A stretch of DNA of 63,841 nucleotides, taken from Rhodobacterales bacterium 56_14_T64 (lineage in GTDB: Bacteria; Pseudomonadota; Alphaproteobacteria; Rhodobacterales; Rhodobacteraceae). Positions 21,425 to 59,220 of the stretch are shown one piece after another. The stretch lies in contig MAAY01000048.1 in assembly GCA_002162795.1 (NCBI GenBank), positions 1 through 63,841 of the forward strand, in the 5' to 3' direction. The translations under genes and the position numbers were made by a program. Each line of letters starts with the position of its first letter. Within the stretch, counting starts at the first letter, position 1. The notes beneath the pieces are model-generated. The model saw only the letters and a program-made list of their open reading frames with translations, made no database searches and had not been told where the DNA came from.

Positions 21425-21435
21425 ATAATCCATCC

Positions 21436-21601: not shown

Positions 21602-21661
21602 ACGATTTTCAAAGTCGCCAAGGACCAAGCGCTGATTAGGCGCGATAAGGGAGGATTAATC

Positions 21662-23014: not shown

Positions 23015-23034
23015 GCCCCTAACCAAGACACAAA

Positions 23035-23059: not shown

Positions 23060-23080
23060 TTATCCAAATCTACTCATTGC

Positions 23081-24100: not shown

Positions 24101-24111
24101 GGAGGCCTGAT

Positions 24112-25266: not shown

Positions 25267-25292
25267 CTCACTCCTTCCTACGGACTAAGACT

Positions 25293-26948: not shown

Positions 26949-26972
26949 ACGGGTAAAGGGAGACAACACCAC

Positions 26973-29009: not shown

Positions 29010-29038
29010 AATAGCCCCTCCTGTCTCAGGTTGATCTG

Positions 29039-30001: not shown

Positions 30002-30004
30002 CGG

Positions 30005-31432: not shown

Positions 31433-31454
31433 GCAGCAGTTCCTCCCTTAACGG

Positions 31455-33172: not shown

Positions 33173-33192
33173 TCTCGGCAGCTCATGATTGT

Positions 33193-33580: not shown

Positions 33581-33680
33581 TTTGTAATTGCCCCCATACT
33601 TGTTACCAGTGTCAATTCGCAACTCTATAGCCACAGCCAAAGACTGCGTAGAAAACACCTCGGTTAGTCCAAGACTAAAG

Positions 33681-33881
33681 TCAGCCGCCAAACTCGATAT
33701 CTGTATCTTCGACGTGCTCAGGCCAGGCTGTAACTTCTTGGATCGCAGTATTGGCCTCAGGTGCGTTTCCGGCCCGGGTCGAAACCCGGTCCCAATTATT
33801 CATATAGTCGGCACAGCCGCCAAGCAGCAGCGCGGCACTCAGAGCTGCCACAGCAGTCTTAGTTCTTTTCAATAACACCAT
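33681..33881 (-). CDS. Small tad-locus lipoprotein
   Basis: This 66-residue protein starts at ATG 33881. A signal peptide with lipobox LLLGGC puts the lipidated Cys at 23. The mature part is ADYMNNWDRVSTRAGNAPEANTAIQ. Its start overlaps the end of cpaC by 23 bp. Short lipoproteins next to the secretin may act as pilotins in tad systems. The function here is unproven. Confidence 0.7.
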   Translation of the reverse strand: MVLLKRTKTAVAALSAALLLGGCADYMNNWDRVSTRAGNAPEANTAIQEVTAWPEHVEDTDIEFGG

Positions 33882-35265: not shown

Positions 35266-35311
35266 TTTAAAAGACCTTATGCCGACATGTCCGCCGTTCA
35301 CAAAAGGTCCG

Positions 35312-44266: not shown

Positions 44267-45031
44267 TTAGTCGGCTTTAGCGATCACCAGTTTTGAGCCG
44301 CTCAGCAAATCTGAAAACACCGTGCCGGGTTGTTGGTCGCAGACAATCAGATCCTCTGACTGTAGCGCTGGCAGCCGCAGCGATGGCTTTACGCCGTCGC
44401 TGATGAATTTTGAGCCATCCACAGCCATGATCGTGTGGCCTGCGATTTCCATCATGGCGCGGGAGATGTCGACCTCGCATTGGTCATAAGCCAGAAAACC
44501 AAGTTTGGGGTGCACCTGCGACGACGATAGAATCGCATAATCAACCGAAGACCGGGCGATCACCTCAAAAGCGGCACGATCAAAGGCGGCACCGTCATGG
44601 GTGCGTAGCTGGGTGCCTGCCATAAAGACCCGGTTGCCTTCGACCATGGACAGGGTGCTGGCGGTGAAGGCCGAGTTGGTCACGATGGTCAGATTTTTCT
44701 TGCGGCGCAGCGCCTGGGCCACAAACCCCGACGTCGAACCCGTGTCGATAGCCAGAGATGCCCCGTCGTTGATCAGATCGGCAATGCAATTGGCAATGGC
44801 CACTTTTGCCGTCCGGTTTTTGTTCATACGCGCCAGAAAAGGTGGGTCCATCAGGTTCTGGGTGCTGACCAGCGCACCGTGAACCTTCTTCAGATCGCCC
44901 CGTTCAACCATTGGAATGACAATCCGACGCACAGTTTGATCTGAAACATCAAGGATCTGTGCCAGTTCGGTCACGGTGACGGTGCCGCGCAGGTTCACGG
45001 TACTGAGAATTTCTTGCTCGTGTTTGGACAT
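44267..45031 (-). CDS. DeoR-family transcriptional regulator
   Basis: This 254-residue protein has an N-terminal DeoR HTH (about 5-55, EILSTVNLRGTVTVTELAQILDVSDQTVRRIVIPMVERGDLKKVHGALV). The DeoR-C sensor domain follows, with LAIDTGSTSGFVAQAL (DxGSTxxxxA), IVTNS and AVDGSKF. DeoR sensors usually bind phosphorylated small metabolites. It is divergent from the first FAD oxidoreductase gene, and the gap holds an elaborate repeat. The same half-site recurs before the betaine-binding protein gene, so it likely controls the whole cluster. Confidence 0.9.
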   Translation of the reverse strand: MSKHEQEILSTVNLRGTVTVTELAQILDVSDQTVRRIVIPMVERGDLKKVHGALVSTQNLMDPPFLARMNKNRTAKVAIANCIADLINDGASLAIDTGSTSGFVAQALRRKKNLTIVTNSAFTASTLSMVEGNRVFMAGTQLRTHDGAAFDRAAFEVIARSSVDYAILSSSQVHPKLGFLAYDQCEVDISRAMMEIAGHTIMAVDGSKFISDGVKPSLRLPALQSEDLIVCDQQPGTVFSDLLSGSKLVIAKAD

Positions 45032-45093
45032 ATCTGGCTTGTTTGACGTTTCGTTGTCCCAAAATATGACAGTTTTGCGAGCGTCTCAAGGTG

Positions 45094-45135
45094 ATAAATC
45101 AACATAAATGAAAATAATTGTTGATTTATGTTGAT
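45094..45135. promoter_or_regulatory. Interlocked inverted and direct repeats, probable DeoR operator
   Basis: Two perfect inverted repeats share the same bases: ATAAATCAACA (45094-45104) with TGTTGATTTAT (45119-45129), and ATCAACATAAAT (45098-45109) with ATTTATGTTGAT (45124-45135). The right side is TGTTGA-N4-TGTTGA, a direct repeat at 10 bp. The region separates the divergent regulator and oxidoreductase genes. Confidence 0.7.
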
Positions 45136-45184
45136 ATAATGATTGCAGATACAGACAGGAGATTTGCGCAAGAGGGCGAGTGAA

Positions 45185-47608
45185 ATGACACAACAGGCGG
45201 TAAAGCACCTGATTATTGGCGGCGGCATCATTGGCTGCTCGATTGCCTATCACCTGGCGAAATCGGGTGAACGGGACGTGGTTTTGTTGGAGAAAGCATC
45301 GCTGACCGAAGGCGCGACATGGCATGCGGCGGGATTGGTCGGGCAGTTGCGCTCGTCGCGCAATACCACGCGGATGCTGAAGCGATCAGTGGCGATGTAT
45401 GATCGGTTGGAAGCGGAAACCGGCATGGCGTTTGACTGGAAGAAAGTCGGCAGCTTGCGGCTGGCGGCGACCAAGGAACGTCTGCTGGAGGCCAAGCGCC
45501 TGACCACGATGGCGCGCAGCTTTGATCTCGACATGGAGATGATCACTCCGGCGGAAGCCAAGGCGCTGTTTCCGTATATCGATGCAGATGGGCTGGAGGG
45601 CGCAGCGTTTATTCCGTCAGATGGCCATGTGGATCCGGCGGGTCTGTGTCTGGCAATTGCTGCCGGCGCACGCAAACATGGCGCAGTGATCCGTCAGGGC
45701 GTCAAGGTAACGGATTTTGAAATCACCAAAGGCCGGATCACGAAGGTGATGACCTCGGACGGGGACTATGAGGCTGAGGTTGTGGTTCTGGCCGCGGGCA
45801 TGTGGAGTCGTGAGCTGGCGGCAAAACTGGGGGTGACCGTTCCTGCCTGCGCGGTTGAGCATCAGTATGTGGTGACCGAACCCTTGCCTGATCCTGAACT
45901 GGTGCGGGACCTGCCGACCCTGCGTGATCCGGAGCGGCTGGTGTATTACAAGCCTGATGCGGGTGGACGTTTGGTCATTGGCGGCTATGAAGAGGGCACA
46001 TTGCCGTTTGGTGACAAGGGAATACCCGGCGAGTTTGTGCGGCAGCTATTGCCCGACAATCTGGACCGCTTTGCGCCGCTGGCCGAAATGGCGGGGCTGG
46101 TGACACCGGTGGTCAATCAGGTTGGCATCCGACAGGTGATCAACGGACCAATCCCCTATTCTGCGGATGGCGATTTTGTCATGGGCTGGGCGCCGAACCT
46201 GAAAAACCTGATGCTGTCGACCGGGTTTCTCTATGGCATTGCCGCTGGCGGCGGGGCAGGGGAGATGATTGCCGAGTGGATTTTGGACGGCAACCCTAGT
46301 CTGGACCTATGGCCTCTAGATGTGCGCCGGTTCAGCCCGCACCACGCCACCAAGGCATTCATGTATCCGCGTGCGGTGGAGCATTACGCGCATCACTATA
46401 AGATGCGATATCCGGGACAAGAGGCTGAAACTGCACGGAAATTACGGCTGAGCCCGCTGTATGACCGTCTGAAACAGCACGGTGCGGTTTATGGGGCAAA
46501 GAATGGTTGGGAGCGGCCATTATGGTTTGCTCCGGACGGAGTAGAGCCGGTGGATCAGCTGGCTTTTGTCGATCCGGGTTGGAAGAAATATGCCGCTGAA
46601 GAGCATAGGGCGGTGCGTAACGGTGTGGCGCTGATCGACCAGTCCAGTTTCTCAAAATTCGACCTTATCGGGGCAGGGGCGCTGGAGGTGTTACAGCGCC
46701 TTTCAGTGTCGAACATGGACAAGCCTGTTGGCAGCGTCATCTATACGCAGCTGTGCAATGCCCGTGGTGGGATCGAGGCAGACATCACGGTGACCCGGAC
46801 TAGCTTGGAGTGTTTTTACATCGTCACCGGCGCCGGGTTTGGGGTGCGCGATAGTGATTGGATCCGCCGTTCGCTGCCCGAAGATGGATCGGTGCATTTG
46901 ATCGAGATGACCTCGGCCAGGGCGGTGGTGAACATTTGCGGCCCCAAAGCGCGTGAGGTGTTGCAACAGGTCTGTGAGGGGGATGTCTCCAACGCCGCCT
47001 TTCCGTTTGGAACGGCGCAAGAGATTGTCATCGGCGCTGCAACGGTGCGGGCGGTGCGGATCGGCTATGTTGGGGAGCTGGGCTGGGAATTGCATGTGCC
47101 CGCTGAATTTGCCCGCCATGTCTATGATAGCTTATGGCAGGCAGGTCAGGCCTTTGGCATCCGGGATGTTGGCTATCGTGCCATTGAATCGCTGCGGCTG
47201 GAAAAGGGATACCTGTACTGGAGCGCCGATATCACCCCGGATTACACGCCGATTGAGGCCGGGCTTGGATTTCGGGTGCATTTGAAGAGCAAAGGGGAAT
47301 TTGCCGGACGGCCTGTGTTAGAGCCGCAAAAGGCCGCCGGGGCAGATCGGCGACTTTGCTCCTTTGTCAGCGAGGCCTCGCTGCCGGTGACAGGTGGGGA
47401 AACCATCTTGAAGTCGGGCGAGGCTGTCTCGCTGGCCTGTAGCGCCGGATATGGCCACACGGTTGGTCGGACCATCATATTTGGCTATCTTCCGGTGGAC
47501 TTGGCCACCCAAGACGAATTTGAACTAGAGGTATTTGGCGAGCGCCATGCGATCCGCCGGTTGGATGGTCCGCTTTATGATCCGACCAACACGCGACTGA
47601 AGTCATAG
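45185..47608 (+). CDS. FAD-dependent oxidoreductase with GcvT domain (dimethylglycine/sarcosine dehydrogenase-like), first copy
   Basis: The protein has about 807 residues from ATG 45185, preceded by GAGGGCGAG. The N-terminal DAO domain has the FAD motif IIGGGIIGCSIAYHLA and ATWHAAGLVGQL, where His47 corresponds to the covalent FAD attachment site in DMGDH/SARDH. A FAO_M middle region and C-terminal GcvT-like domains (about 420-807; GYRAIESLRLEKGYLYWSADIT, FGVRDSDW) follow. Such enzymes oxidatively remove N-methyl groups and pass formaldehyde to tetrahydrofolate. It is homologous along its length to the gene at 53713. The substrate is not defined by sequence. No signal peptide, so it is cytoplasmic. 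Confidence 0.88.
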   Translation: MTQQAVKHLIIGGGIIGCSIAYHLAKSGERDVVLLEKASLTEGATWHAAGLVGQLRSSRNTTRMLKRSVAMYDRLEAETGMAFDWKKVGSLRLAATKERLLEAKRLTTMARSFDLDMEMITPAEAKALFPYIDADGLEGAAFIPSDGHVDPAGLCLAIAAGARKHGAVIRQGVKVTDFEITKGRITKVMTSDGDYEAEVVVLAAGMWSRELAAKLGVTVPACAVEHQYVVTEPLPDPELVRDLPTLRDPERLVYYKPDAGGRLVIGGYEEGTLPFGDKGIPGEFVRQLLPDNLDRFAPLAEMAGLVTPVVNQVGIRQVINGPIPYSADGDFVMGWAPNLKNLMLSTGFLYGIAAGGGAGEMIAEWILDGNPSLDLWPLDVRRFSPHHATKAFMYPRAVEHYAHHYKMRYPGQEAETARKLRLSPLYDRLKQHGAVYGAKNGWERPLWFAPDGVEPVDQLAFVDPGWKKYAAEEHRAVRNGVALIDQSSFSKFDLIGAGALEVLQRLSVSNMDKPVGSVIYTQLCNARGGIEADITVTRTSLECFYIVTGAGFGVRDSDWIRRSLPEDGSVHLIEMTSARAVVNICGPKAREVLQQVCEGDVSNAAFPFGTAQEIVIGAATVRAVRIGYVGELGWELHVPAEFARHVYDSLWQAGQAFGIRDVGYRAIESLRLEKGYLYWSADITPDYTPIEAGLGFRVHLKSKGEFAGRPVLEPQKAAGADRRLCSFVSEASLPVTGGETILKSGEAVSLACSAGYGHTVGRTIIFGYLPVDLATQDEFELEVFGERHAIRRLDGPLYDPTNTRLKS

Positions 47609-47629
47609 ATCACAAGGGAGTATTCAGGA

Positions 47630-48571
47630 ATGGCAGACGAAAATACAGCCGACGTGTTGCAGGCTTTGCGAAAACTGGCCGGGTATGAGGGGGTTTTCGC
47701 CGAAAACTGTAGCATCCAAAGGTTGGGTGGGCTGACCAATCTGGTCTACCGGGTGGAATTTGAGGGACAAAGTGTAATTGTGCGTATCCCCGGTGCGGGC
47801 ACCGAGGCATATATTGATCGCGCAGTGGAAATCCACAACACTCGGGTGGCGGCAGACGTCGGGATCGCGGCCAAAGTGTTATGGGCTGATCCTGCAACTG
47901 GCGTCATGATCAGCGATTGCATTGAAAACATTGAAACCATGACGCCGACCTTGTTCCACAGTCGCGATGGGTCACCTGCGCGGGCAGGGGCGGCGTTGCG
48001 CCAATTGCATCAGGCGCCGGTGCCGTTTGAGTTCCGGTTTGAGCTGTTCACGATGATCGACAGCTATCTGGAAATTCTGTCCAAGAAGCAGACCACCCTG
48101 CCGGATGGATATCAGGACGTGGTCGCAGAAGCGGCCCCAGTGAAGCAGTTATTGGCTGACAAGCCGGGGGATCTGGCGCCCAGCCATTGTGATCCGTTGT
48201 GCGAGAATTTTCTGGATGACGGGGTCCGTATGTGGATCGTTGACTATGAGTATTCCGGGATGAATGACCCGCTGTGGGATCTGGGGGATCTGTCGGTTGA
48301 GGCTGGCCTGACAGAGGCGCAAGATCTTGAAATGCTGACCGCCTATTTTGGTGCCGCCCCGTCGGCGGCGAAGATCGGGCGCATGGTGATTTACAAGGCG
48401 ATGTGTGACCTGCTGTGGACCCTGTGGGGATTGATTCAGCATGCCGATGGTAACCCAGCCGAGGATTTCTGGGCCTATGCGCTCACGCGGTTTGAGCGCT
48501 GTCAGTTGTTGATGACGGATCCTGCCTTTGCGGGCCACATGGCTGCAGTTCGCGCGGTTGATGAGGCGTGA
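47630..48571 (+). CDS. Choline-kinase-like phosphotransferase (APH fold), first copy
   Basis: This 313-residue protein of the APH/choline kinase superfamily has the catalytic loop SHCDPLCENF (His186, Asp188, Asn193) and metal-binding WIVDYEYSGMNDPLWDLGDLSVEA (Asp205). These match choline/ethanolamine kinases better than aminoglycoside kinases. An N-terminal GGLTNLVYRVEF nucleotide-binding strand is visible. It lies 22 bp downstream of the first oxidoreductase and before the betaine-binding protein. It may phosphorylate an amino alcohol. The product could be the DeoR effector, an inference. Confidence 0.85.
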   Translation: MADENTADVLQALRKLAGYEGVFAENCSIQRLGGLTNLVYRVEFEGQSVIVRIPGAGTEAYIDRAVEIHNTRVAADVGIAAKVLWADPATGVMISDCIENIETMTPTLFHSRDGSPARAGAALRQLHQAPVPFEFRFELFTMIDSYLEILSKKQTTLPDGYQDVVAEAAPVKQLLADKPGDLAPSHCDPLCENFLDDGVRMWIVDYEYSGMNDPLWDLGDLSVEAGLTEAQDLEMLTAYFGAAPSAAKIGRMVIYKAMCDLLWTLWGLIQHADGNPAEDFWAYALTRFERCQLLMTDPAFAGHMAAVRAVDEA

Positions 48572-48624
48572 TGCCTGCCAAATTGCAGTAAAAGCCACAA
48601 ATTTCCACATTGAGTGGTGATTTT

Positions 48625-48640
48625 TGTTGAAATGTGTTGA
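48625..48640. promoter_or_regulatory. TGTTGA direct repeat upstream of the betaine-binding protein
   Basis: TGTTGAAATGTGTTGA has two TGTTGA units 10 bp apart, the same arrangement as at 45119-45134 before the first oxidoreductase. It is about 93 bp before the binding-protein ATG, in the only sizeable gap of the plus-strand cluster. Confidence 0.6.
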
Positions 48641-48732
48641 GAAATATTGAGCATGGACTGATTACATCTGCGACTCGTCAGATCAGCCAATAGGTCTCTG
48701 GTCGCCTTAGAAAAACCACAGGGGGTTTGAAA

Positions 48733-49680
48733 ATGCGTACTTTTACCACTCTTCTAGCGGCTGCTGCTGCGGGGCTTAGCCTTGCAAGCGGCGTTTTGGC
48801 CGAGGCTGAATCTCAAGAGCCGATCAAGCTGACAATGCATGACTGGACGGGGCAGTTGCTGACCACAACAATCATGGGCAAAGTTCTGGCCAATGCGGGC
48901 TACAACGTTGAATATGTGCAGGCGGATTATATTGCTCAGTTTGCCGGGCTTAAAACCGGTGACCTGCATGTTGCCATGGAAATCTGGGAAACCACCGGAC
49001 GCGAGGCCATGGATGAGGCCACAGATACTGGCAAAGTCGTAAACATGGGCGAGTCCGGAATGATGGCCATCGAGGAATGGTGGTATCCGGCTTATATGGA
49101 AGAGCTCTGCCCCGGTCTGCCGGATTGGAAAGCGCTGAACGATTGTGCGCAGGAGTTCTCGACCCCTGAAACGGCCCCGATGGGCCGGTATTTGGGTGGC
49201 CCGGTGACTTGGGGTGGCTTCGACGATGAACGCGTCGAAGCATTGGAGATGGATTTCGAAGTTGTGCACGCGGGCACCGACGCCGCGCTGTTTGCTGAAT
49301 TGGAAAGCGCCTATCAGCGTAAAGCCCCGATTGTGCTGTGGGTTTATGCGCCGCATTGGGCACCGTCCAAATACGACGGGAGCTTTGTTAAGTTCCCAGC
49401 TTATTCCAGCGAATGTTATTCGGATCCATCGGTGGGGATGAACCCGTCGATGGCTTATGATTGCGGGAAACCCACCGGACCAATCTGGAAAGTTGCCTGG
49501 TCTGGTCTGGCTGACAAATGGCCTGGTGCCGCGTCGGCTGTTGAGGCCTTTACCATCAGCAATGATGACATGGGTGCCATGGTGACAGCTGTAGATCTGG
49601 GCGGCGGTAGTGTTGACGAGGTTAGCGAAGCTTGGCTGGCCGCCAATGAAGCCACTTGGTCCGGTTGGGTCACGAAGTAA
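48733..49680 (+). CDS. Glycine-betaine/choline-type ABC binding protein (OpuAC family)
   Basis: The protein has about 315 residues from ATG 48733, with GGGGG 7 nt upstream. Signal peptide MRTFTTLLAAAAAGLSLASGVLAEA precedes the OpuAC domain: IKLTMHDWTGQLLTTTIMGKVLANAGYNVEYVQADYIAQFAGLKTGDLHVAMEIWETT. Several Trp and Tyr residues (EEWWYPAYM, WVYAPHWAP) could form an aromatic cage for a quaternary ammonium. Two Cys pairs may be oxidised. It is followed by ATPase and double-permease genes. Confidence 0.92.
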   Translation: MRTFTTLLAAAAAGLSLASGVLAEAESQEPIKLTMHDWTGQLLTTTIMGKVLANAGYNVEYVQADYIAQFAGLKTGDLHVAMEIWETTGREAMDEATDTGKVVNMGESGMMAIEEWWYPAYMEELCPGLPDWKALNDCAQEFSTPETAPMGRYLGGPVTWGGFDDERVEALEMDFEVVHAGTDAALFAELESAYQRKAPIVLWVYAPHWAPSKYDGSFVKFPAYSSECYSDPSVGMNPSMAYDCGKPTGPIWKVAWSGLADKWPGAASAVEAFTISNDDMGAMVTAVDLGGGSVDEVSEAWLAANEATWSGWVTK

Positions 49681-49690
49681 GGTGACCTAT

Positions 49691-49714
49691 CAGGGCGGTC
49701 GAATGGCCGCCCTG
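49691..49714 (+). terminator. Hairpin after the betaine-binding protein gene
   Basis: CAGGGCGG, loop TCGAATGG and CCGCCCTG, followed by TTAAT, lie 10 bp after the stop. The perfect 8 bp stem can act as an attenuator that keeps binding-protein messenger in excess. Confidence 0.65.
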
Positions 49715-49782
49715 TTAATACCCGCTATTGACGCCTGCTGTGCCAGCGCGTTCTGGACTGTTTTGTCGTGCCTGAGGACTAC

Positions 49783-50814
49783 ATGAAAAAACCAATTTTG
49801 CTGGACTGTCGCAATGTCTGGAAAATCTACGGGGCACAGGCCGGCCGGGTTCACGCCGAACACAGGGGCAACCCCAGTGCCGAGACACTCAAAAATCAGG
49901 GTCTAATAGGGGCCGTTCGCAATGCCAGCGTTCAAATCCGACAAGGAGAGATCTTTGTCATCATGGGGTTGTCGGGGTCGGGGAAATCGACCTTGGTGCG
50001 GTGTCTGTCACGATTGATTGAACCCACCGGTGGCGAGATCCTGTTCGAGGGCCAAGATCTATTGACGATGAGAGATAAGGAACTCATCGAGATACGTCGC
50101 AAGAAGATGGGCATGGTGTTTCAACATTTTGCCTTGCTGCCGCATTTGACCGTGCTGCAAAATGCGGCGTTTCCGTTGGAAATTCAAGGCATGGGCAAGG
50201 CTGAGCGTGAAGCCCGCGCCCGAGAAGTGGTTGAGCTGGTTGGGCTGAAAGGGCGCGAGGACTATTATCCCCGTCAACTGTCTGGCGGTCAGCAGCAGCG
50301 GGTCGGCATTGCGCGCTCCTTGGCGGTGGAACCTGACCTGTGGTTTCTGGATGAGCCGTTTTCGGCGCTGGATCCGTTGATCCGCCGCGAGATGCAGGAT
50401 GAATTTTTGCGGCTGCAGAACCTGTTGCACAAGACCATCGTATTTATCACCCATGATTTTGACGAGGCCATTCGGCTGGCCGACCGCATTGCCGTGATGA
50501 AAGACGGCGAGATTGTGCAAATCGCCACGCCTGAAGAGCTGATTCTGAATCCGGCAACGGAGTATGTTGAGGAATTCACCCGACATATACCGCGCTCCAA
50601 GGTTCTGACGCTGGGGTCGGTGATGTCGCCAGGTGCGGTGGCAGGCGAAGCGGCCGGTGACTTGCAGGCAACGCAACGTATCGAGGATTGTGCAGACCAG
50701 ATCGAGGCCAGCGATCTGCCGTTTCGAGTGTTGTCGGAAGGCGGCACTGTTGTCGGCTCTATCGGGCGGCAAATAGTGGTGGACATTCTGATCGGCCGAA
50801 AGGTCTCGTTGTGA
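49783..50814 (+). CDS. Glycine-betaine-type ABC ATPase (ProV/OpuAA family)
   Basis: The protein has about 343 residues from ATG 49783, with GAGG 5 nt upstream; GTG 49768 is a weaker option. Walker A is GLSGSGKST, the signature is LSGGQQQRVGIARSLAVEP, Walker B is LWFLDEPFSALD and the H-loop is ITHDFDEA. The N-terminal extension, WKIYGAQAGRVHAEH.., is typical of ProV. The C-terminal regulatory portion (about 235-343) has only one CBS-like segment (FRVLSEGGTVVGSIGRQIVVDILIG). The stop overlaps the permease GTG (GTGA). Confidence 0.92.
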   Translation: MKKPILLDCRNVWKIYGAQAGRVHAEHRGNPSAETLKNQGLIGAVRNASVQIRQGEIFVIMGLSGSGKSTLVRCLSRLIEPTGGEILFEGQDLLTMRDKELIEIRRKKMGMVFQHFALLPHLTVLQNAAFPLEIQGMGKAEREARAREVVELVGLKGREDYYPRQLSGGQQQRVGIARSLAVEPDLWFLDEPFSALDPLIRREMQDEFLRLQNLLHKTIVFITHDFDEAIRLADRIAVMKDGEIVQIATPEELILNPATEYVEEFTRHIPRSKVLTLGSVMSPGAVAGEAAGDLQATQRIEDCADQIEASDLPFRVLSEGGTVVGSIGRQIVVDILIGRKVSL

Positions 50815-52820
50815 TCCGCTTACGCCAAATAATCCAAAACTCAACAGTACAGTTCTGGACTATCCTGTTTACAGTGACTTGGCTGTTGTCCCGGTATTCG
50901 TGGGATCTGTACAAGACGCTGGATGCGCGCTGGATCATCAAATACCCAGCCGCGGCGCGACTGCCGTTGGAAGACAAGATCAGTGCTTTCATGCAGTGGT
51001 TGGTCGAAGACGCCAGCTTTGGGTTGTTCTCGTTTCGTGACATGACCCGGTTCATCGCCTCGCTGATCGAAGCGCCTTACGATTTTGCCCGTGACCTGTT
51101 GATCGAGGGGTTCTCGGTGGGCTTGGGTAACGAGGCGGTTGAGATTGCGCCCTCGCTCAGCTGGATTGCCATCATCGTGACGCTTGCCGCCATGGGTCAC
51201 TATGCGCGCGATTGGAAGTTGGCGGCCCTGATGGGCGGGTGTTTTCTGTATCTGGCGGTGTTTGGCCAGTGGGACAGTGCGATGGTCACCCTGGCGTCGG
51301 TGCTGATAGCGGTGCCAATTGGCGCCATTGGCGGGTTGATGCTGGGTATCTTCGCCTATCGCTGGCCGGTATTTGAGCAAGTGATCCGCCCGCTGTTGGA
51401 CCTGATGCAGACGGTGCCGGTTTTTGCCTATCTGGTTCCGATCCTGTTCTTGTTTGGCTTTGGCCCGGTTGCGGCGCTGGTGGCGACGATCATCTACGCG
51501 ATGCCGCCGATGGTGCGGGTGACGATCCTTGCGTTGAGGGCCGTGCCGGGTGAAGTCAAAGATGTCGGCGTCATGGTGGGCTGTACCAAACATCAACTGA
51601 TGTGGAAGGTCATGGTGCCTTCGGCCGCGCCGATGCTGATGGTTGGGGTCAATCAGGTCATCATGCTGACACTGAACATGGTGATCATTGCTTCGATGAT
51701 TGGGGCAGGGGGGCTGGGTTTTGATGTTTTGACGGCCCTGCGGCGGCTGGATATCGGCGGCGGGATCGAGGCAGGTGTTGCCATCGTAGTGATGGCGATT
51801 GCCCTGGATCGACTGAGCCAGGCCTTTGCCAGCCGTGTTGCGGCCGATCATCAACTGGACCCGGATCTGCCGCTAGTGAAACGCCACCCGTGGACGGTGA
51901 CGGTTCTGGTGGTTGCTGTTGGGACGTTCCTGTTGGCGCGGCTGCTGCCGGGCATCCAGTCCTACCCCGAGGCCGCGACCCTTTCGACGGGCACTTTCTG
52001 GTCCGATGTCATTGGCTATATCAACGTGAATTACTTTGACACATTTGAGGCGATCAAGACCGCCTTTCTGTCTTATCTTCTGCTGCCGGTGAAACGGTTT
52101 TTCGTTGGAATCCCGTGGGCCTGGGGCATTATTGCAATGACGTTGATCGGTTGGCGCGTGGGCGGAATCCGCCTGTCGGGTATGGCCGGTCTGTTCACCG
52201 CATTCATTGCCGCCAGCGGGCTGTGGGACAAGGCGATGGTGACAGTGTATCTTTGTGGGGTTTCGGTCCTGGTGGCCTCGGCCATCGGCATTCCTATGGG
52301 TATTCTGGCGGCGCAGAATGATCGGGCGAACCGAGTGATCAATTCGTTGATCGACACGCTGCAAACCCTGCCGAGCTTTGTCTATCTGATCCCAGTGGTG
52401 ATGCTGTTTCGGGTGGGGGACTTTTCAGCGATGATTGCGGTGGTGCTCTATGCGCTGGCGCCAGCGGTGCGTTATGCGGCGCATGGCATTCGCAATGTCG
52501 ATCCGCAACTGATCGAGGCCGGGCTGGTGTCCGGCTGCACGCCGCGCCAGTTGTTGTGGCGGATCAAATTGCCGATGGCGCTGCCCGAGCTTCTGTTGGG
52601 ATTGAACCAAACCATCATGCTAGCCCTGTCGATGCTGGTGATCACCGCGCTGGTGGGGACACGGGATTTGGGTCAGCAGGTCTATATCGCATTGACCAAG
52701 GCCGATTCAGGGCTGGGCATTGTGGCCGGTCTGTCGGTGGCCTTTATCGCCATCATCGCGGACCGCATCCTGTCTGCGTCGGCGAAACGCGCAAAGCAAA
52801 GATTGGGACTGATGTCATGA
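50811..52820 (+). CDS. Glycine-betaine-type ABC permease with two fused membrane domains
   Basis: The protein has about 669 residues from GTG 50811, overlapping the ATPase stop. There are two BPD_transp_1 (ProW-like) halves. The first has coupling loop GEVKDVGVMVGCTKHQLMWKVMVPSAAPMLMVGVNQ near residue 265. The second has LIEAGLVSGCTPRQLLWRIKLPMALPELLLGLNQ near residue 580. Most ProW/OpuAB proteins have one such half; a fused tandem supplies a full channel from one chain. It overlaps the next kinase gene by 4 bp (ATGA). Confidence 0.92.
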   Translation: MIRLRQIIQNSTVQFWTILFTVTWLLSRYSWDLYKTLDARWIIKYPAAARLPLEDKISAFMQWLVEDASFGLFSFRDMTRFIASLIEAPYDFARDLLIEGFSVGLGNEAVEIAPSLSWIAIIVTLAAMGHYARDWKLAALMGGCFLYLAVFGQWDSAMVTLASVLIAVPIGAIGGLMLGIFAYRWPVFEQVIRPLLDLMQTVPVFAYLVPILFLFGFGPVAALVATIIYAMPPMVRVTILALRAVPGEVKDVGVMVGCTKHQLMWKVMVPSAAPMLMVGVNQVIMLTLNMVIIASMIGAGGLGFDVLTALRRLDIGGGIEAGVAIVVMAIALDRLSQAFASRVAADHQLDPDLPLVKRHPWTVTVLVVAVGTFLLARLLPGIQSYPEAATLSTGTFWSDVIGYINVNYFDTFEAIKTAFLSYLLLPVKRFFVGIPWAWGIIAMTLIGWRVGGIRLSGMAGLFTAFIAASGLWDKAMVTVYLCGVSVLVASAIGIPMGILAAQNDRANRVINSLIDTLQTLPSFVYLIPVVMLFRVGDFSAMIAVVLYALAPAVRYAAHGIRNVDPQLIEAGLVSGCTPRQLLWRIKLPMALPELLLGLNQTIMLALSMLVITALVGTRDLGQQVYIALTKADSGLGIVAGLSVAFIAIIADRILSASAKRAKQRLGLMS

Positions 52821-53704
52821 ATGCAGCAGCACAAGCCGCTATCGAGAAAGCCATGTCCTTGTCGATCTGGCAGGCGCCGCATCAGGCGGCCCTGCTGGGC
52901 GGTGGGATTACCAATTTCAATGTCATGCTGACCGATCAAGGCAAGCGGTATGTGGTGCGGGTGGGGCAGGATATACCGCTGCATCAGATCATGCGATTCA
53001 ACGAGTTGGCCGTTCACCGGGCAGCGCAGGAGATTGGCGTTGCCCCGGCGGTGGTTCACGCAGAGCCGGGTATTCTGGTGCTGGAGTTTGTCGACGGTGG
53101 GTCGTTGGACGAGTCGGCGGTGCGCAACGATGATATGCTGGCTCGCATCATCCCGATGGTAAAGCGATGCCATTCCGAAGGAATGCAAGCACTGCGTGGC
53201 CCGGTACTGACCTTCTGGGTGTTTCATGTTTTGCGCAACTATGCGGCGTCACTGCGTGAGGGAGGATCTACATATCAGCCAATGTTAGAGCCGCTTTTGC
53301 AGACGGCGAGCCAGTTGGAACAGGCCGTGGGGCCGGTGCAACTGGTGCTGGGTCACAATGATCTGCTGGCCGCCAATGTTCTGGATGATGGCACTCGGCT
53401 GTGGTTACTGGATTGGGAATATGGCGGCTTTAACTCGCCTCTGTTTGATCTGGCTGGGTTGGCATCCAACAACGAGCTGAGCGAAGCGCAGGAATGTGCG
53501 ATGCTGGAAAGCTATTTTGAGACCCAGCTGACACAACAGCTTGCGCACCAATATCACGCCATGAAATGTGCCTCGCTGCTGCGCGAGACCATGTGGAGCA
53601 TGGTGTCTGAAATACACTCTGAAATCGACTTTGACTACGCGGTTTACACCGAGAAAAACCTGACGCGTTTCAAAGCAGCCCTTTCCGACTTTCAATCTAT
53701 GTGA
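52817..53704 (+). CDS. Choline-kinase-like phosphotransferase (APH fold), second copy
   Basis: The protein has about 295 residues from ATG 52817, overlapping the permease stop. It carries GGGITNFNVMLTDQGKRYVVRVG, the catalytic loop LGHNDLLAANVL (HNDLxxxN) and LWLLDWEYGGFNSPLFDLAGLASN, all choline/ethanolamine kinase hallmarks. It is related to, but clearly diverged from, the copy at 47630. Coupling to the permease suggests that it acts on the imported compound or on a product of it. Confidence 0.85.
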   Translation: MNAAAQAAIEKAMSLSIWQAPHQAALLGGGITNFNVMLTDQGKRYVVRVGQDIPLHQIMRFNELAVHRAAQEIGVAPAVVHAEPGILVLEFVDGGSLDESAVRNDDMLARIIPMVKRCHSEGMQALRGPVLTFWVFHVLRNYAASLREGGSTYQPMLEPLLQTASQLEQAVGPVQLVLGHNDLLAANVLDDGTRLWLLDWEYGGFNSPLFDLAGLASNNELSEAQECAMLESYFETQLTQQLAHQYHAMKCASLLRETMWSMVSEIHSEIDFDYAVYTEKNLTRFKAALSDFQSM

Positions 53705-53712
53705 GGCTTACT

Positions 53713-56154
53713 ATGAGCTCCTTTCCAACAAGTGCAAAAGCTGTCGTTATTGGCGGCGGTATCGTGGGCTGTTCAACGGCGTACCATCTGGCCAAGCTTG
53801 GCTGGACCGATGTGGTTCTGCTGGAACGCAAGAAACTGACATCCGGCACCACTTTTCACGCAGCGGGACTGGTGGGGCAGCTGCGCTCAAACGCCAATAT
53901 CACCCAGTTGCTGGGGTATTCCGTCGATCTGTATAAAACACTGGAGCAGGAAACCGGTCAGGCGACGGGGTGGAAAATGAACGGTGGATTGCGGCTGGCC
54001 TGTAATCAGGAACGCTGGACCGAGGTCAAGCGGCAGGCCACCACCGCGCATAGTTTTGGCTTGGAAATGGAGCTGTTGACCCCATCCGAGGCCAAGGAAC
54101 TTTGGCCATTAATGAACATCGATGATGTGGTTGGAGCGGCCTTCATGCCCACCGATGGGCAGGCCAATCCGTCGGATATCACTCTGTCTCTGGCCAAAGG
54201 GGCCCGGATGGCCGGTGCCACCATTCTGGAAGACACCAAGGTCACCAATATTGTGCTGGAGGACGGCGTCATCAAAGGCGTGATGACCGAGAAGGGCTTT
54301 ATCGAGTGTGAAAAGGTCATTGTCTGCGCCGGGCAATGGACTCGTGATTTTGCCGCCACTGTTGGTGTGAACGTGCCGCTGGTGCCGATGGAGCATCAGT
54401 ATATGGTCACAGAACGGATCGATGGCGTGACCCCGGATATGCCAACCCTGCGCGACCCGGATCGTCTGACTTACTACAAGGAAGAAGTCGGCGGTTTGGT
54501 GATGGGCGGCTACGAGGCCAACCCGATCCCCTGGGCCACCAAGGGCATTCCCAAGGGGTTCCACTATACCCTGCTGGACAGCAATTTTGACCATTTTGAG
54601 CCGCTGATGGAGCTGGCGCTGGGGCGGGTTCCGGCGCTGGAAACGGCGGGCATCAAGACGCTGACCAATGGCCCGGAAAGTTTCACGCCGGATGGAAACT
54701 TCATCATTGGTGAAGCGCCTGAGCTGAAAAACCTGTTTATTGGCGCGGGCTTTAACGCCTTTGGCATTGCCGCCGGAGGCGGGGCAGGCATGGCGTTGGC
54801 GGAATGGGTCAAGAACGGTGAACCACCGTTTGATCTGTGGTCCGCAGATATTCGCCGTTTTGGTCGTCCGCATTTTGACACAGATTGGATCCGGACCCGT
54901 ACGGTGGAGGCTTATGGCAAGCATTACACTATGGCCTGGCCGTTTGAGGAGCATAGCTCGGGCCGTCCGTGCCGCAAATCTCCGCTGTATGATACCCTGA
55001 AAGGCAAGGGGGCGTGCTTTGGTGAAAAACTGGGGTGGGAGCGCCCAAACTGGTTTGCCACGGCCGGGATGGAGGCCAAGGACGTTTATAGCTTTGGGCG
55101 GCAGAACTGGTTTGAGACTGTTGGCGGCGAGCACAAGGCGGGCCGAGAAGCGGCAGTTTTGTTTGATCAAACCTCGTTTGCCAAGTTCACCCTAAAAGGC
55201 CCGGACGCTGAGGCCGCGCTAAGCTGGATTGCGGCCAATGATGTGCAGAAACCTGTGGGCTCGCTGATCTACACCCAGATGCTGAACGACAAGGGAGGCA
55301 TTGAATGTGACCTGACCGCTGTGCGGGTGGCGCGGGATGAATTTTACATTGTTACCGGCACCGGCTTTGCCACTCATGATTTTGACTGGATCTCGCGCAA
55401 TATCCCCGAAGGGATGAACGCGCAGCTGGTCGATGTCACGTCGGCTTATTCGGTACTGTCACTGATGGGCCCCAGGGCGCGTGACATTCTGCAGAAGGTG
55501 ACCAATAGCGATGTCTCTAACGCGGCGTTCAAATTTGGCACTGCCAAGACCATTGGTATTGCTGGCTGTCCGGTGAACGCGCTGCGGGTGACCTATGTGG
55601 GCGAGTTGGGCTGGGAGCTTCACCTGCCGGTGGAATACGCCACAACTGTATATGCGGCGCTGTCGAAGGCAGGCGCTGAGTTTGGCCTTAGGGATGCAGG
55701 GTATCGGGCAATTGAAAGCATGCGGCTGGAAAAAGGCTATCGCGCCTGGGGGGCGGATATCGGGCCGGATCATACTCCGGCAGAGGCTGGGTTGGGCTGG
55801 GCGATCAAGCTAAAGAAAAACATCGAGTTCAAAGGCCGTAAGGCAGCCGAGGCGCAGCGTGATACCGGAGTGAAAAAGATCATGGCCTGTTTTACGGCGG
55901 ACCCGGATGTGGTGCTGTCGGGACGTGAGACGATCTACCGCGATGGCAAGCGGGTGGGCTGGCTGTCCAGCGGCGGGTTTGGCTATACGGTCAATAAATC
56001 GATTGGCTATGGCTATGTTCGCTCAGATGAAGTGATTGACGCGGCTTATGTATTGTCCGGCTCATATGAGTTGGAGGTGGCGAGCAAGAGGGTGCCCTGC
56101 AAGGTTCAGCTGCGGCCTTTGTATGATCCCAAAATGGAACGGGTAAAGTGCTGA
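53713..56154 (+). CDS. FAD-dependent oxidoreductase with GcvT domain (dimethylglycine/sarcosine dehydrogenase-like), second copy
   Basis: The protein has about 813 residues from ATG 53713, with GAGG 6 nt upstream; a GTG at 53701 overlaps the kinase stop. The FAD motif is VVIGGGIVGCSTAYHLA, and TTFHAAGLVGQL contains His49 at the covalent-FAD position. The C-terminal GcvT domains include GYRAIESMRLEKGYRAWGADIGPDHTPAEAGL. It has the same architecture and motifs as the gene at 45185. The two may act on successive methylated intermediates of one pathway. It ends the plus-strand cluster and is followed by two hairpins. Confidence 0.88.
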   Translation: MSSFPTSAKAVVIGGGIVGCSTAYHLAKLGWTDVVLLERKKLTSGTTFHAAGLVGQLRSNANITQLLGYSVDLYKTLEQETGQATGWKMNGGLRLACNQERWTEVKRQATTAHSFGLEMELLTPSEAKELWPLMNIDDVVGAAFMPTDGQANPSDITLSLAKGARMAGATILEDTKVTNIVLEDGVIKGVMTEKGFIECEKVIVCAGQWTRDFAATVGVNVPLVPMEHQYMVTERIDGVTPDMPTLRDPDRLTYYKEEVGGLVMGGYEANPIPWATKGIPKGFHYTLLDSNFDHFEPLMELALGRVPALETAGIKTLTNGPESFTPDGNFIIGEAPELKNLFIGAGFNAFGIAAGGGAGMALAEWVKNGEPPFDLWSADIRRFGRPHFDTDWIRTRTVEAYGKHYTMAWPFEEHSSGRPCRKSPLYDTLKGKGACFGEKLGWERPNWFATAGMEAKDVYSFGRQNWFETVGGEHKAGREAAVLFDQTSFAKFTLKGPDAEAALSWIAANDVQKPVGSLIYTQMLNDKGGIECDLTAVRVARDEFYIVTGTGFATHDFDWISRNIPEGMNAQLVDVTSAYSVLSLMGPRARDILQKVTNSDVSNAAFKFGTAKTIGIAGCPVNALRVTYVGELGWELHLPVEYATTVYAALSKAGAEFGLRDAGYRAIESMRLEKGYRAWGADIGPDHTPAEAGLGWAIKLKKNIEFKGRKAAEAQRDTGVKKIMACFTADPDVVLSGRETIYRDGKRVGWLSSGGFGYTVNKSIGYGYVRSDEVIDAAYVLSGSYELEVASKRVPCKVQLRPLYDPKMERVKC

Positions 56155-56162
56155 CCGGGCAG

Positions 56163-56187
56163 GGGCAGGCCGAAGAAAGGCCTGCCC
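56163..56187 (+). terminator. Hairpin after the second oxidoreductase
   Basis: GGGCAGGCC, a seven-base loop and GGCCTGCCC form a perfect 9 bp stem, 9 bp after the stop codon. No T run follows. It is the likely end of the amine cluster transcript. Confidence 0.65.
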
Positions 56188-56564
56188 GCCGTCGCCAGTA
56201 GATCAATCGAAACAGCCCCATTGCGACCGAGGGTGTTTTTCAACCACCAACGGGGCAATCACCGAAGACATCGTACTTCAGTACTTGGAGACGCATATCA
56301 AAACCCCTACCGACGCCAGGAGGTAGGGGTTTAGTGTTGTTTGCGCAGGACACCTGCAGACCGGCGATCCAACACTGCTGTTGAGATAACGAAAATGCAC
56401 AAGTATGGGCGTGGCGAGCATTGCCTCTGATCCGCGAATGACCTGTAATTATGCGGCTGTTCGATTAGGGCCGGAGCCCGGGGCAGACTTCGCCAAAAAA
56501 TAAATCTTGTATGGCGATACAATTTTTCTTGATTTTGAAAATCATACATGATCGACTGAAAATC
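56188..56564. other. Intergenic region before the GlxA-type regulator
   Basis: Nearly 380 bp without a convincing gene. It contains the hairpin at 56301-56332 and, close to the regulator start, two short palindromes: TTGTAT-GGCG-ATACAA (56508-56523) and GATTTTGAAAATC (56531-56543). These could be operator sites for the regulator. Confidence 0.45.
56301..56332. terminator. Second hairpin after the amine cluster
   Basis: AAACCCCTAC, a 12-base loop and GTAGGGGTTT form a perfect 10 bp stem ending in TTT. It has a rho-independent terminator look on both strands. Confidence 0.6.
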
Positions 56565-57512
56565 ATGCGGAACTGGGCACTACCATCAGAACATACAGAA
56601 AAGATCGACATTCTACTGTTCGATGAATTTTCGAATTATTGTCTTGCAAATGCCGTTGAGCCGATGCGGGTGGTCAATCGGTTTCTGGGCCGCGAGGCTT
56701 ATGAATGGTCGTTGCTGACGCTGGACGGTCAACCCGTGAAATCATCTGCAGGTATGCCTGTGACCCCGGAGCGTTCTTTGTCGCAATCGCCTGGTGGTCA
56801 GGTACTGTTTGTTATGCCCAGCTACGCCTACCAAACCTACGCCACGGATGCGTGCAATCGTTCGCTTCAGGCGGCTTCTGAAAAATATGACGTTTTGGCA
56901 GGGTTGGACATGGGCAGCTGGTTGCTTGCCTCGGCCGGTCTTTTGCAAAATCGCCGTGCCACAGTGCATTGGGATGAACTCAGCGCTTTTTCCGAGCAGT
57001 TTCCTGAAGTAAACGCCGAGCGTGTTACTTTCACAATTGATGGCGATCGCTGGACGTCTGCTGGCGCAATGGCCGCATTTGATTTGCTGCAGCACATGGT
57101 TGGGCAAACTCACGGCGAGACAATGAGGCTGGAAGTTGCCTCTATGTTTATGGTCGGCGAGGGTGGCAATGGACACAGTACAGCGGAGGTCCTGCCGCAA
57201 TCCAACTTGTGCAAAAGAGCAGTCTCGATGATGCGCGAGCAACTGGAAGAGCCCGTTTCAATTTTTGATATTTGCGAAACACTCAGTTGCCGACGGCAAA
57301 ATTTGGAACGTGCGTTCAACGAAGAATTGGGCGCACCGCCCAAGACAATTTACCGGCGCATCCGCCTGACTGCGGCAAAGCGCTACGCTGAACAAACCAA
57401 ACTTTCGGTCGCCGAAATCTCTTTGCGTTGTGGGTATCATAACCCCAGCGCGATGACTCGGGCGTTCCGTGATGAATTTGGTGTGGCCCCGCGAGACCTG
57501 CGGCCGCATTGA
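56565..57512 (+). CDS. GlxA-family AraC-type regulator (GbdR/CdhR-like)
   Basis: The protein has about 315 residues from ATG 56565; an in-frame ATG at 56511 would add 18 unconserved residues. The N-terminal DJ-1/PfpI-like domain (about 10-185, IDILLFDEFSNYCLANAVEPMRVVNRFLG) lacks an obvious catalytic Cys, so it is a ligand sensor. The C-terminal AraC HTH pair (about 220-315) has SIFDICETLSCRRQNLERAFNEELGAPPKTIYRRIRL and VAEISLRCGYHNPSAMTRAFRDEFGVAP. Relatives GbdR and CdhR in Pseudomonas activate betaine, dimethylglycine and carnitine catabolism. Here it lies between the amine cluster and the peptide importer and could act on either. Confidence 0.85.
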   Translation: MRNWALPSEHTEKIDILLFDEFSNYCLANAVEPMRVVNRFLGREAYEWSLLTLDGQPVKSSAGMPVTPERSLSQSPGGQVLFVMPSYAYQTYATDACNRSLQAASEKYDVLAGLDMGSWLLASAGLLQNRRATVHWDELSAFSEQFPEVNAERVTFTIDGDRWTSAGAMAAFDLLQHMVGQTHGETMRLEVASMFMVGEGGNGHSTAEVLPQSNLCKRAVSMMREQLEEPVSIFDICETLSCRRQNLERAFNEELGAPPKTIYRRIRLTAAKRYAEQTKLSVAEISLRCGYHNPSAMTRAFRDEFGVAPRDLRPH

Positions 57513-57635
57513 TAAGGATTAAAGGAACCGATTGACTGACAGCCAAATGATTGGCCTAGTGGGTCACAAAATAACGAAGAAACAACACAGAATAATCGAT
57601 TGCCACAAAGGCAACGAATTCACAGGGAGAACACA

Positions 57636-59219
57636 ATGTCAAATGAACTGAAGTATCTATCCGAGCGTGCAGCGCGCGGATTGTTGAATCGCCGCTCGTT
57701 TATGGGTCGCGCTGCGGCGCTGGGTGCAACTACAACTTTCGCTAGCACCATGCTTGCATCGGCTGTTATGGCCGCTGGACCTGTCAAAGGTGGCACATTG
57801 CGCGTGGGCATTCAGGGCGGATCGTCTACCGATTCACTAGACCCGGGTCTCTCGACAAACGCGACTTCACTCCAAATTCTCCGGATGTGGGGCGAACCAC
57901 TGCTGGAGCTTGCTGAAGACGGTGGCATCGATCCTCGTCTCGCATCAGAATACGAAGCTTCGGCAGACGCAAAAACCTGGACGTTCAAAATGCGTTCGGG
58001 TGTCACTTACAGCAACGGTAAATCCGTGACTGCTGAGGATGTGAAAGCGACTATCGAGCGTCATGCTGGTGAAGAGTCCAAATCCGGCGCGCTTGGTTTG
58101 CTACGGGGCATCGTCTCGATGTCTACCGATGGCGACAGATTCATTCTGGAGCTTGATACTCCCAACGCTGACTTGCCGTATCTGCTGGCCGATTATCACC
58201 TGGTTATTCAACCAAACGGCGGTAAGGACGATCCGACAGCGGCAATTGGTTCAGGTCCATATATCCTGAAGTCACATGAACCGGGTGTTCGTCATGTCTT
58301 TGAAAAGAACCCCAACTATTGGAACGACGATCTCGGCCATGCCGAAACAGTTGAGCTGCTGGTCATCAATGACGACACAGCCCGCGTCGCGGCGTTGCAG
58401 TCTGGTCAGGTTCACATGGTCAACCGGGTTCCACCAAAAGTGGCATCACTGGTCGGTCGCATGGGCGGCGTAAAGGTGCATTCGACACCAAGTGCCGGGC
58501 ATTATGTCTTCATCATGCACGCCGATACCGCACCTTTCGACAACAAAGACCTTCGTTTGGCGCTAAAATACGCGATCAATCGCGAAGAAATGGTCGACAA
58601 GATCTTGTTTGGTAACGGCACTGCCGGCAACGACTCGCCGATCAATGCCAGCTATCCGTTGTTCTCCGAAAGAGAGCAGCGCACTTATGACCCAGAAAAA
58701 GCCGCGTTCCATTTCAAGGCATCTGGTCACGATGGTTCGGTTCTGCTGCGCACATCAGACAATTCCTTCCCAGGTGCTCCAGATGCGGCCCAGCTGTTCC
58801 AACAGAGTGCCGGTGCGGCTGGCATCACGTTGGACATCAAGCGTGAGCCAAACGATGGCTACTGGTCAGAAGTTTGGAACAAGCAGCCGTTCTGCACCAG
58901 CTACTGGGGCGGTCGTCCGACTCAGGATGCCATGTTCTCGACGGCTTACCTGTCTTCGGCGGATTGGAATGACACCCGCTTCTTTAACGAAGGCTTCGAC
59001 AAGATGCTTCTGGCAGCGCGCGCGGAATTGGACGAAGGCAAGCGCAAGGCAATCTATAGCGACATGAGCACAATCGTGAGCGATGAGGGTGGATTGATCT
59101 GTCCGATGTTCAACAACTTCATCGATGCGGTGTCCGAGGGCGTAGAAGGTTGGCGCACAACCAAGGGCTTTGACCTGATGAACAACTACGCTCCATTGAA
59201 AATGTGGGTCACCGCATAA
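57636..59219 (+). CDS. Dipeptide/opine-type ABC binding protein (SBP_bac_5), Tat-exported
   Basis: The protein has about 527 residues from ATG 57636, with GGGAG 10 nt upstream. The N-terminus has a twin-Arg signal, NRRSFMGRAAALGATTTFASTMLASAVMAAG. The SBP_bac_5 domain follows, with GGTLRVGIQGGSSTDSLDPG, TWTFKMRSGVTYSNGKSVTAEDVKATIERH and ALKYAINREEMVDKILFGNGTAGNDSPI. The family binds dipeptides, opines, nickel or sugars; the ligand here is unknown. Tat export is unusual in this family but seen in Rhodobacteraceae. Confidence 0.9.
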   Translation: MSNELKYLSERAARGLLNRRSFMGRAAALGATTTFASTMLASAVMAAGPVKGGTLRVGIQGGSSTDSLDPGLSTNATSLQILRMWGEPLLELAEDGGIDPRLASEYEASADAKTWTFKMRSGVTYSNGKSVTAEDVKATIERHAGEESKSGALGLLRGIVSMSTDGDRFILELDTPNADLPYLLADYHLVIQPNGGKDDPTAAIGSGPYILKSHEPGVRHVFEKNPNYWNDDLGHAETVELLVINDDTARVAALQSGQVHMVNRVPPKVASLVGRMGGVKVHSTPSAGHYVFIMHADTAPFDNKDLRLALKYAINREEMVDKILFGNGTAGNDSPINASYPLFSEREQRTYDPEKAAFHFKASGHDGSVLLRTSDNSFPGAPDAAQLFQQSAGAAGITLDIKREPNDGYWSEVWNKQPFCTSYWGGRPTQDAMFSTAYLSSADWNDTRFFNEGFDKMLLAARAELDEGKRKAIYSDMSTIVSDEGGLICPMFNNFIDAVSEGVEGWRTTKGFDLMNNYAPLKMWVTA

Positions 59220-59220
59220 T

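Follow-up and report, generated by a model that had tools for sequence, protein, structure and literature searches.

Why should a bacterium keep two choline-kinase-like genes, each next to a gene for a flavin-dependent demethylase, with the genes for an importer between the two pairs? The question is raised by positions 44267 to 57512 of a contig of Rhodobacterales bacterium 56_14_T64 (C68; MAAY01000048.1), the entire 63,841 bases of which form the window considered here, the source genome being of 4.3 Mb in 111 contigs. An earlier note on this DNA, made from its letters alone, had proposed that kinases, and demethylases that transfer methyl groups to folate, act on an imported N-methylated amino alcohol by a way other than the choline-betaine-glycine route, and comparison with other genomes largely supports that proposal: kinases and oxidoreductases are co-conserved, and Pfam gave no domain of choline dehydrogenase, betaine aldehyde dehydrogenase or betaine-homocysteine methyltransferase (BHMT) among 39 window proteins, the other open reading frames of the window and the rest of the genome lying outside that search. 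On balance the cluster is probably a catabolic pathway for N-methylated ethanolamines that proceeds via their phosphate esters.

Two predicted kinases, each beside a predicted demethylase

All nine genes named in the earlier note were found where it had placed them, and all Pfam domains given here for them are above cut-off. The gene for a DeoR/GlpR-type regulator (44267..45031, minus strand; DeoRC 108.8 bits, HTH_DeoR 42.3 bits) is divergent from the remainder, which are on the plus strand. FG1, a predicted FAD/GcvT amine demethylase (45143..47608; its open reading frame begins at TTG, with an in-frame ATG at 45185), is followed by its partner K1, a predicted LicA-like amino-alcohol kinase (47630..48571; Choline_kinase 67 bits, APH). 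Next come the importer genes, encoding an OpuAC-type substrate-binding protein (48727..49680; OpuAC 161.7 bits), a ProV-type ATP-binding cassette (ABC) ATPase (49768..50814; TIGR01186 356 bits, above cut-off) and a fused double permease with two BPD_transp_1 stretches (50811..52820; TIGR03416 402 bits, above cut-off). They lead into K2 (52817..53704; Choline_kinase 71 bits, APH), another predicted LicA-like amino-alcohol kinase, and its partner FG2 (53701..56154), again a predicted FAD/GcvT amine demethylase and the candidate for the core step. The 4-bp overlaps of ATPase with permease and of permease with K2 were verified in the sequence, and K2 and FG2 overlap likewise when the GTG at 53701 is taken as the FG2 start, for which an ATG at 53713 is the alternative. 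A promoter scan gave 4 sites where 6.7 were expected and was not used as evidence.

FG1 and FG2 both carry DAO, FAO_M, GCV_T and GCV_T_C domains in a single chain of ~820 residues, the architecture of the dimethylglycine dehydrogenase/oxidase family. Enzymes of this type use FAD to oxidise an N-methyl group on an amine, tertiary or secondary, and through their GcvT domain transfer the methyl to tetrahydrofolate. Flavin amine dehydrogenases require the nitrogen lone pair and have tertiary and secondary amines as substrates, and because of this a quaternary compound is unlikely to be what is demethylated here. FG2 matches human DMGDH with 558 bits and dimethylglycine oxidase (DMGO) with 420 bits, and it keeps His and Tyr at the positions aligned to the catalytic dyad reported for the bacterial enzyme, His225 and Tyr259 of Arthrobacter globiformis DMGO (PMC5082570); for FG1 the same EHQY and YY motifs were read directly in the sequence. 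Domain architecture, catalytic His/Tyr positions and folate domain are features that FG1 and FG2 share with the dimethylglycine and sarcosine dehydrogenases of the choline-betaine-glycine route. Unlike those dehydrogenases they fall in separate clades and are paired with kinases, no Bet or BHMT domain being seen in the cluster. Each forms one clade in a tree that excluded matches containing a stop or covering less than 75%, as well as two duplicate copies of window genes. The source genome has eight more FAD/GcvT paralogues (L100-L107), one of them a shorter match.

The kinases both score above the Pfam Choline_kinase cut-off and keep the HxDxxxxN...D catalytic motif intact. Their nearest solved relatives are 3DXQ from Mesorhizobium, which K1 matches with 358 bits and which by that score would be its orthologue (the PDB listing gives a family name only), and the LicA choline kinase 4R77, with 112 bits for K1 and 59 for K2. 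LicA makes phosphocholine for surface structures; K1 and K2 are instead paired with demethylases. GntI-type kinase of the guanitoxin pathway (NF041256) is the best NCBIfam match of both, and was rejected at 137.4 bits for K1 and 137.7 for K2 against a curated cut-off of 357. Nor are the two products of a recent duplication: their identity is 24%, they occupy separate clades of the kinase tree, and K2 is found without K1. That tree excluded matches with less than 70% query coverage or with a stop, by which the K1 of L066 and L067 were dropped. K1, K2, FG1 and FG2 each lie on one side of a branch, the exception being one outlying, ungrouped K2-like kinase.

How far do these pairs travel together? 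Co-occurrence was followed across the family in 295 genomes, each representing one genus, with statistics that ignore kinship. As K1 orthologues were counted 35 matches of at least 58% identity (three of them, in G069, G245 and G255, with one internal stop) and a partial 49% match, with a stop, in G242, weaker matches being K2 or other kinases; as K2 orthologues, matches of E 1e-40 or better. K1 was thereby assigned to 36 and K2 to 58 of the 295, and K2 is present in all 36 K1-bearing genomes as against 22 of the 259 without K1 (Fisher p 2.4e-31). The earlier note had expected the kinases and oxidoreductases to be conserved together, and they are: K2 adjoins FG2 in 30 of the 31 family loci that hold it, and all seven structural genes are inside one stretch of at most 20 kb in 12 family loci. 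Among 80 loci of named genomes chosen by FG2, the best of 541 confirmed FG2 matches, K2 adjoins FG2 in 73; L187 has no room for it, and L151, L159, L162, L185, L186 and L197 have no K2 match ending near FG2. (Matches of less than 25% coverage were ignored in the gene maps of family loci, and of less than 40% in those of the named FG2 regions and of the glutamine synthetase (GS) and Tmm-Tdm regions treated below.)

The two pairs are not symmetrical. K1 adjoins FG1 in 18 of the 35 family loci holding K1, and where there was enough flank, in 66 named loci, K1 was present in 23 and FG1 in the same 23. Because K2 adjoins FG2 almost throughout, and K1 and FG1 come together in only 23 of 66, the K2-FG2 pair is taken as the core and K1-FG1 as an add-on. 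The modules are separable, being on two contigs in G043 and in two places on one plasmid in Ruegeria sp. THAF33, and in G206 K2 is not before FG2 but on another contig. FG1 is not next to K1 in 17 loci. Of these, 13 (L050, L051, L053-L059, L061-L064) have a class I S-adenosylmethionine (SAM) methyltransferase gene divergent from K1, as does L088 of Shinella sp. HZN7; the remainder are L038 and L060, both of which end beside K1, L067, where K1 is partial, and L065, where neither partner is next to K1. A metal/formaldehyde-sensitive repressor gene and DmeF follow K2-FG2 in the same Shinella locus and in L123, from a record labelled Roseateles sp. XES5 that carries repB/repC genes and the mark UNVERIFIED_ORG, and whose organism label may be wrong.

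A phosphatase and ethanolamine genes among the neighbours

In relatives the cluster has further members. An inositol-monophosphatase-family (IMPase) gene is in the cluster of 13 FG-type family loci, mostly adjoining K1 or a second DeoR gene, and in 36 of the 80 named loci; a phosphatase would, from this recurrence, belong to the system in many relatives. The DeoR gene itself adjoins FG1-K1 in many of them.

Bearing on the product are the genes of ethanolamine metabolism. The ethanolamine permease EutH is encoded in one of the 295 family genomes, and there directly 3' of K2-FG2. Roseovarius nubinhibens and R. dicentrarchi have the arrangement DeoR/K2-FG2-IMPase-EutH without an OpuAC-type transporter, the R. 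nubinhibens EutH scoring 648.5 bits against an equivalog cut-off of 575, and DeoR/K2-FG2-EutH is the arrangement in Nitratireductor sp. OM-1. In Shimia aestuarii and Cognatishimia maritima genes for an FGase, a GS-type ligase, an aldehyde dehydrogenase (ALDH) and an iron-type alcohol dehydrogenase (FeADH) lie directly downstream of FG2 (the Pfam domains were verified in the Shimia locus). In two Litoreibacter the same four adjoin FG2 on the opposite strand; in Salipiger abyssi FG2 is followed by genes for ETF-beta, a FAD-binding protein, FolD, PurU, FGase, GS and ALDH; and G239 has GS and FeADH with K2-FG2.

Phaeobacter sp. MED193 is reported to have an operon RpiR-GGAH-EtoVWX-ETAGA-GAADDH-GETADH whose products rise on phosphoethanolamine, whose EtoX has a Kd of 7.9 uM for ethanolamine, and whose enzymes are assigned as an ethanolamine gamma-glutamylase, two dehydrogenases and a gamma-glutamylglycine amidohydrolase (PMC10132767); Streptomyces GlnA4 is reported to make gamma-glutamylethanolamide (PMC6529630). 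To judge by gene content, the FG2-linked FGase-GS-ALDH-FeADH genes, with RpiR and tripartite ATP-independent periplasmic (TRAP) transporter genes, match the MED193 operon. When the GS regions of ten K2-bearing genomes were viewed, FGase, GS, ALDH and FeADH were together in nine, the source genome included, the tenth (G239) having GS and FeADH only. The source genome's copy, at L211, has identities to the Shimia genes of 87% (FeADH), 84% (ALDH), 67% (GS) and 49% (FGase), and includes DctM and DctQ; TRAP genes were verified in both regions scanned, L211 and L215, and RpiR in L215. The source genome carries this Eto-type gene set, of predicted function, away from the window.

A GS homologue is present in 55 of 58 K2-bearing genomes as against 125 of 237 without K2 (p 1.5e-10), and in 2 of 20 genomes with EutB as against 178 of the 275 others (p 1.5e-6), an avoidance such as would be expected of two alternative ethanolamine routes. 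EutB was found neither in the source genome nor in any of the 36 K1-bearing genomes, and in only 2 of the 58 with K2; the presence of K2 is not significantly linked to that of EutB, positively or negatively (p 0.38). On the strength of the EutH and Eto-module linkage the cluster's product is probably ethanolamine.

EutBC had been entertained as the downstream enzyme on the suggestion of another group of operons, and was dropped in view of the absence of EutB from the source genome, from 36 of 36 K1-bearing and from 56 of 58 K2-bearing genomes. Those operons, in L090-L092, L113-L117, L068-L072 and L080, on Ri and other plasmids, combine a DeoR gene with genes for an M20-type hydrolase and for two kinases that belong to different clades; among the 8 named loci viewed, 5 have IMPase/HisN and 4 have EutBC. 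They share with the window cluster a DeoR gene and two kinases of the same superfamily, and differ in having an ABC importer that is of peptide type (present in most, and adjacent in those), a hydrolase where the window cluster has FG enzymes, and kinases of clades other than those of K1 and K2. They possibly constitute an uncharacterised ethanolamine-related system.

A proposed route through phosphate esters, and its rivals

From the gene content, linkage and co-occurrence read in these genomes we infer a substrate, an order of steps, a role for the phosphatase and ethanolamine as product, as follows. The ABC system would import N,N-dimethylethanolamine and/or N-methylethanolamine, and the LicA-like K1 and K2, with catalytic motifs intact in both, would phosphorylate the hydroxyl. 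The phosphate ester would be retained in the cell and, as an anion, would be held by the dimethylglycine-dehydrogenase scaffold in the place of the carboxylate; that a phosphate can occupy this position could be why a kinase is dedicated to each dehydrogenase. FG1 and FG2, to judge from their domains and kept catalytic residues, would each take off one methyl and pass it to tetrahydrofolate, K2-FG2 being the core and probably performing the last demethylation, with K1-FG1 an optional earlier one. An IMPase-family phosphatase, encoded in the clusters of many relatives and not in that of the window, would then release ethanolamine, from which the gamma-glutamyl-ethanolamide (Eto) route would yield glycine and glutamate; the genes of that route are linked as described, and its function is known from other species. 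Plants and nematodes have a phosphobase methylation pathway, and what is envisaged here would overall be that pathway in reverse.

Where K1 is missing, another provision may have been made. In two K1-less genera, G219 and G239, genes for trimethylamine monooxygenase (Tmm) and trimethylamine N-oxide (TMAO) demethylase (Tdm) are directly upstream of K2-FG2, with Tmm scores of 827.9 and 817.5 bits against an NCBIfam equivalog cut-off of 675, and Tdm scores of 1204.4 and 1185.7 against 1100. Tdm is present in 14 of 22 genomes with K2 only as against 10 of 36 with K1 (p 0.013; a post hoc comparison, made after the linkage was seen), and in 56 of 237 without K2. Tmm-Tdm apparently takes the place of K1-FG1 in these two genera, consistent with a first demethylation, from dimethyl- to monomethylethanolamine, by N-oxygenation; the genes may equally serve trimethylamine. 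The fuller proposition, of an undescribed aerobic reverse-phosphobase pathway in which kinase/FAD-GcvT pairs demethylate di- and monomethylethanolamine phosphates, with dephosphorylation then leading to Eto, modular (K1-FG1 or Tmm-Tdm, ABC system or EutH) and widespread in Alphaproteobacteria, seems to us evenly balanced.

Must the phosphate come first? FG1 and FG2 might demethylate the free methylated ethanolamines, with the kinases acting later or alongside; their phosphorylated products, from ethanolamine or a derivative of it, would then go into lipid head groups or be inducers to which the DeoR protein responds. No result fixes the order of steps, and LicA, the nearest characterised kinase, makes phosphocholine for surface structures; against this, either kinase has its own FG enzyme as partner, and the phosphatase recurring in the clusters, along with the free-ethanolamine genes after FG2 in some relatives, would undo such a phosphorylation. 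We regard this ordering as unlikely. Nor does any result fix the carbon skeleton, and the same logic of kinase, demethylase and phosphatase could be applied to another N-methylated amino alcohol, for instance a derivative of propanolamine or diethanolamine, since close analogues may also be substrates of Eut and gamma-glutamylating enzymes; with the EutH equivalog and the Eto genes indicating ethanolamine itself, a different skeleton is quite doubtful.

Choline could also be the cargo, and the transporter proteins do resemble choline/betaine systems by TIGR03416 and TIGR01186. K1 would then make phosphocholine, and some other enzyme would perform the first demethylation ahead of FG1 and FG2. 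That phosphocholine can be demethylated is reported for Eubacterium limosum, which phosphorylates choline and then demethylates it to dimethylaminoethanol phosphate, the methyl going to folate (PMC12155760). Yet no candidate quaternary-amine enzyme was seen in the cluster, the lone-pair requirement of flavin amine dehydrogenases applies, and EutH takes the place of the ABC system in some relatives, all of which makes choline a very improbable substrate.

Several observations tell against the route via methylated ethanolamine phosphates as set out above. The clusters of the window and of its closest relatives, L125 and L132, have no phosphatase gene, and the five IMPases of the source genome are at most 42% like the FG-type cluster enzymes tried, comparison with eight cluster enzymes giving no clear orthologue. 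The best of the five, L097, was set aside as the missing part, adjoining as it does a DeoR gene and an apparent aminoethylphosphonate cluster: on contig C102 (L217, 8644-19901) DeoR and IMPase genes are beside SBP_bac_6, an ABC ATPase, a fused permease, a class V aminotransferase, a phosphodiesterase-type hydrolase and an ALDH, which looks like an aminoethylphosphonate cluster. A GS gene is beside the cluster in only 4 of the 80 named loci, and the GS threshold of E 1e-120, reached by about half of the K2-less genomes, may admit paralogues. Rhizobium K2-FG2 loci lack the OpuAC-type importer (Rhizobiales loci L165, L166, L168, L177, L182, L188, L189 and others have an ABC ATPase of another type just upstream), and the one scanned, L165, carries a sugar-type binding protein and permeases near K2-FG2. 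The neglect of kinship bears on all the co-occurrence figures, and the proposed pathway leaves unexplained why K1 is beside a SAM methyltransferase gene, and not FG1, in 13 family loci.

Setting, known systems and meaning

Of the regulators and transporters around the cluster, not all need belong to it. The nearest solved structure to the OpuAC-type binding protein is 4XZ6 (266 bits), which we take to be TmoX, of the type of protein that binds TMAO in an aromatic cage; several Trp positions are common to the two and others differ. The gene downstream of FG2, for an AraC/DJ-1 regulator (56511..57512, plus strand), had been counted in the earlier note as a GlxA/GbdR-like member of the cluster, and this was not borne out: it is only distantly related to GbdR (NF052371), with 213.9 bits against a curated cut-off of 480, and no match to it was found beside FG2 in L125 and L132. 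Because of these two results the gene is probably not part of the unit, and GbdR was rejected as the unit's regulator. An oligopeptide-type ABC transporter operon (57600-62613) follows 88 bases after it on the same strand, and the two are probably a separate unit.

On the other side of the cluster are genes for a Rep3-type replication initiator (38608-39870) and ParA/ParB-like proteins (40452-42897), and with these genes the contig, whose two ends have no exact overlap, is very probably a plasmid. Further off are Tad/Flp-type pilus genes (28086-36397; T2SSF, T2SSE, secretin, RcpC) and an alpha-glucoside-type cluster (19068-28064; GH1, a LacI regulator, a binding protein, two permeases, GH13 and a MalK-type ATPase), homologues of several genes of which adjoin K2 in G206 (locus L076).

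Among known systems, the Eto operon of Phaeobacter sp. MED193 and the GlnA4 pathway of Streptomyces coelicolor are nearest in their downstream part, genes of such a kind following FG2 in some relatives and forming a TRAP operon in the source genome. The Eto operon handles unmethylated ethanolamine, with neither kinase nor FAD/GcvT demethylase, and the window cluster would feed it from methylated ethanolamines. The Mth system of E. limosum (MthK, MthB, MthC, MthA) is a precedent, since there, as proposed here, phosphorylation of an amino alcohol precedes the transfer of its methyl to tetrahydrofolate; it differs in being cobalamin-dependent and in taking one methyl from phosphocholine to leave dimethylaminoethanol phosphate (PMC12155760), where the window cluster would use flavin chemistry and LicA-like kinases. 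A Roseobacter choline study treats Bet genes, dimethylglycine dehydrogenase and sarcosine dehydrogenase, and its main text does not use the term choline kinase (PMC4744692). Neither a description of the cluster or of the phosphate-ester demethylation combination, nor an aerobic bacterial pathway for methylated ethanolamines, was found in the literature, a weak negative confined to open-licence papers. Each part belongs to a known family, and the downstream route is likewise established; what would be new is their combination as a phosphate-ester demethylation pathway.

Should the proposal be true, it would represent an undescribed recycling of lipid-type nitrogen, with methylated head-group nitrogen returning to glycine, and would provide a route for the methylated ethanolamines, the compounds between choline and ethanolamine in lipid turnover. 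In rhizobia and in marine bacteria of the Roseobacter group, genes annotated merely as choline kinase family protein or FAD-dependent oxidoreductase would gain functions, and 3DXQ, as the solved K1 orthologue, a role. Phosphorylation would then give N-demethylation a handle on its substrate in two chemistries that are unrelated, that of flavin and folate here and that of cobalamin in E. limosum.

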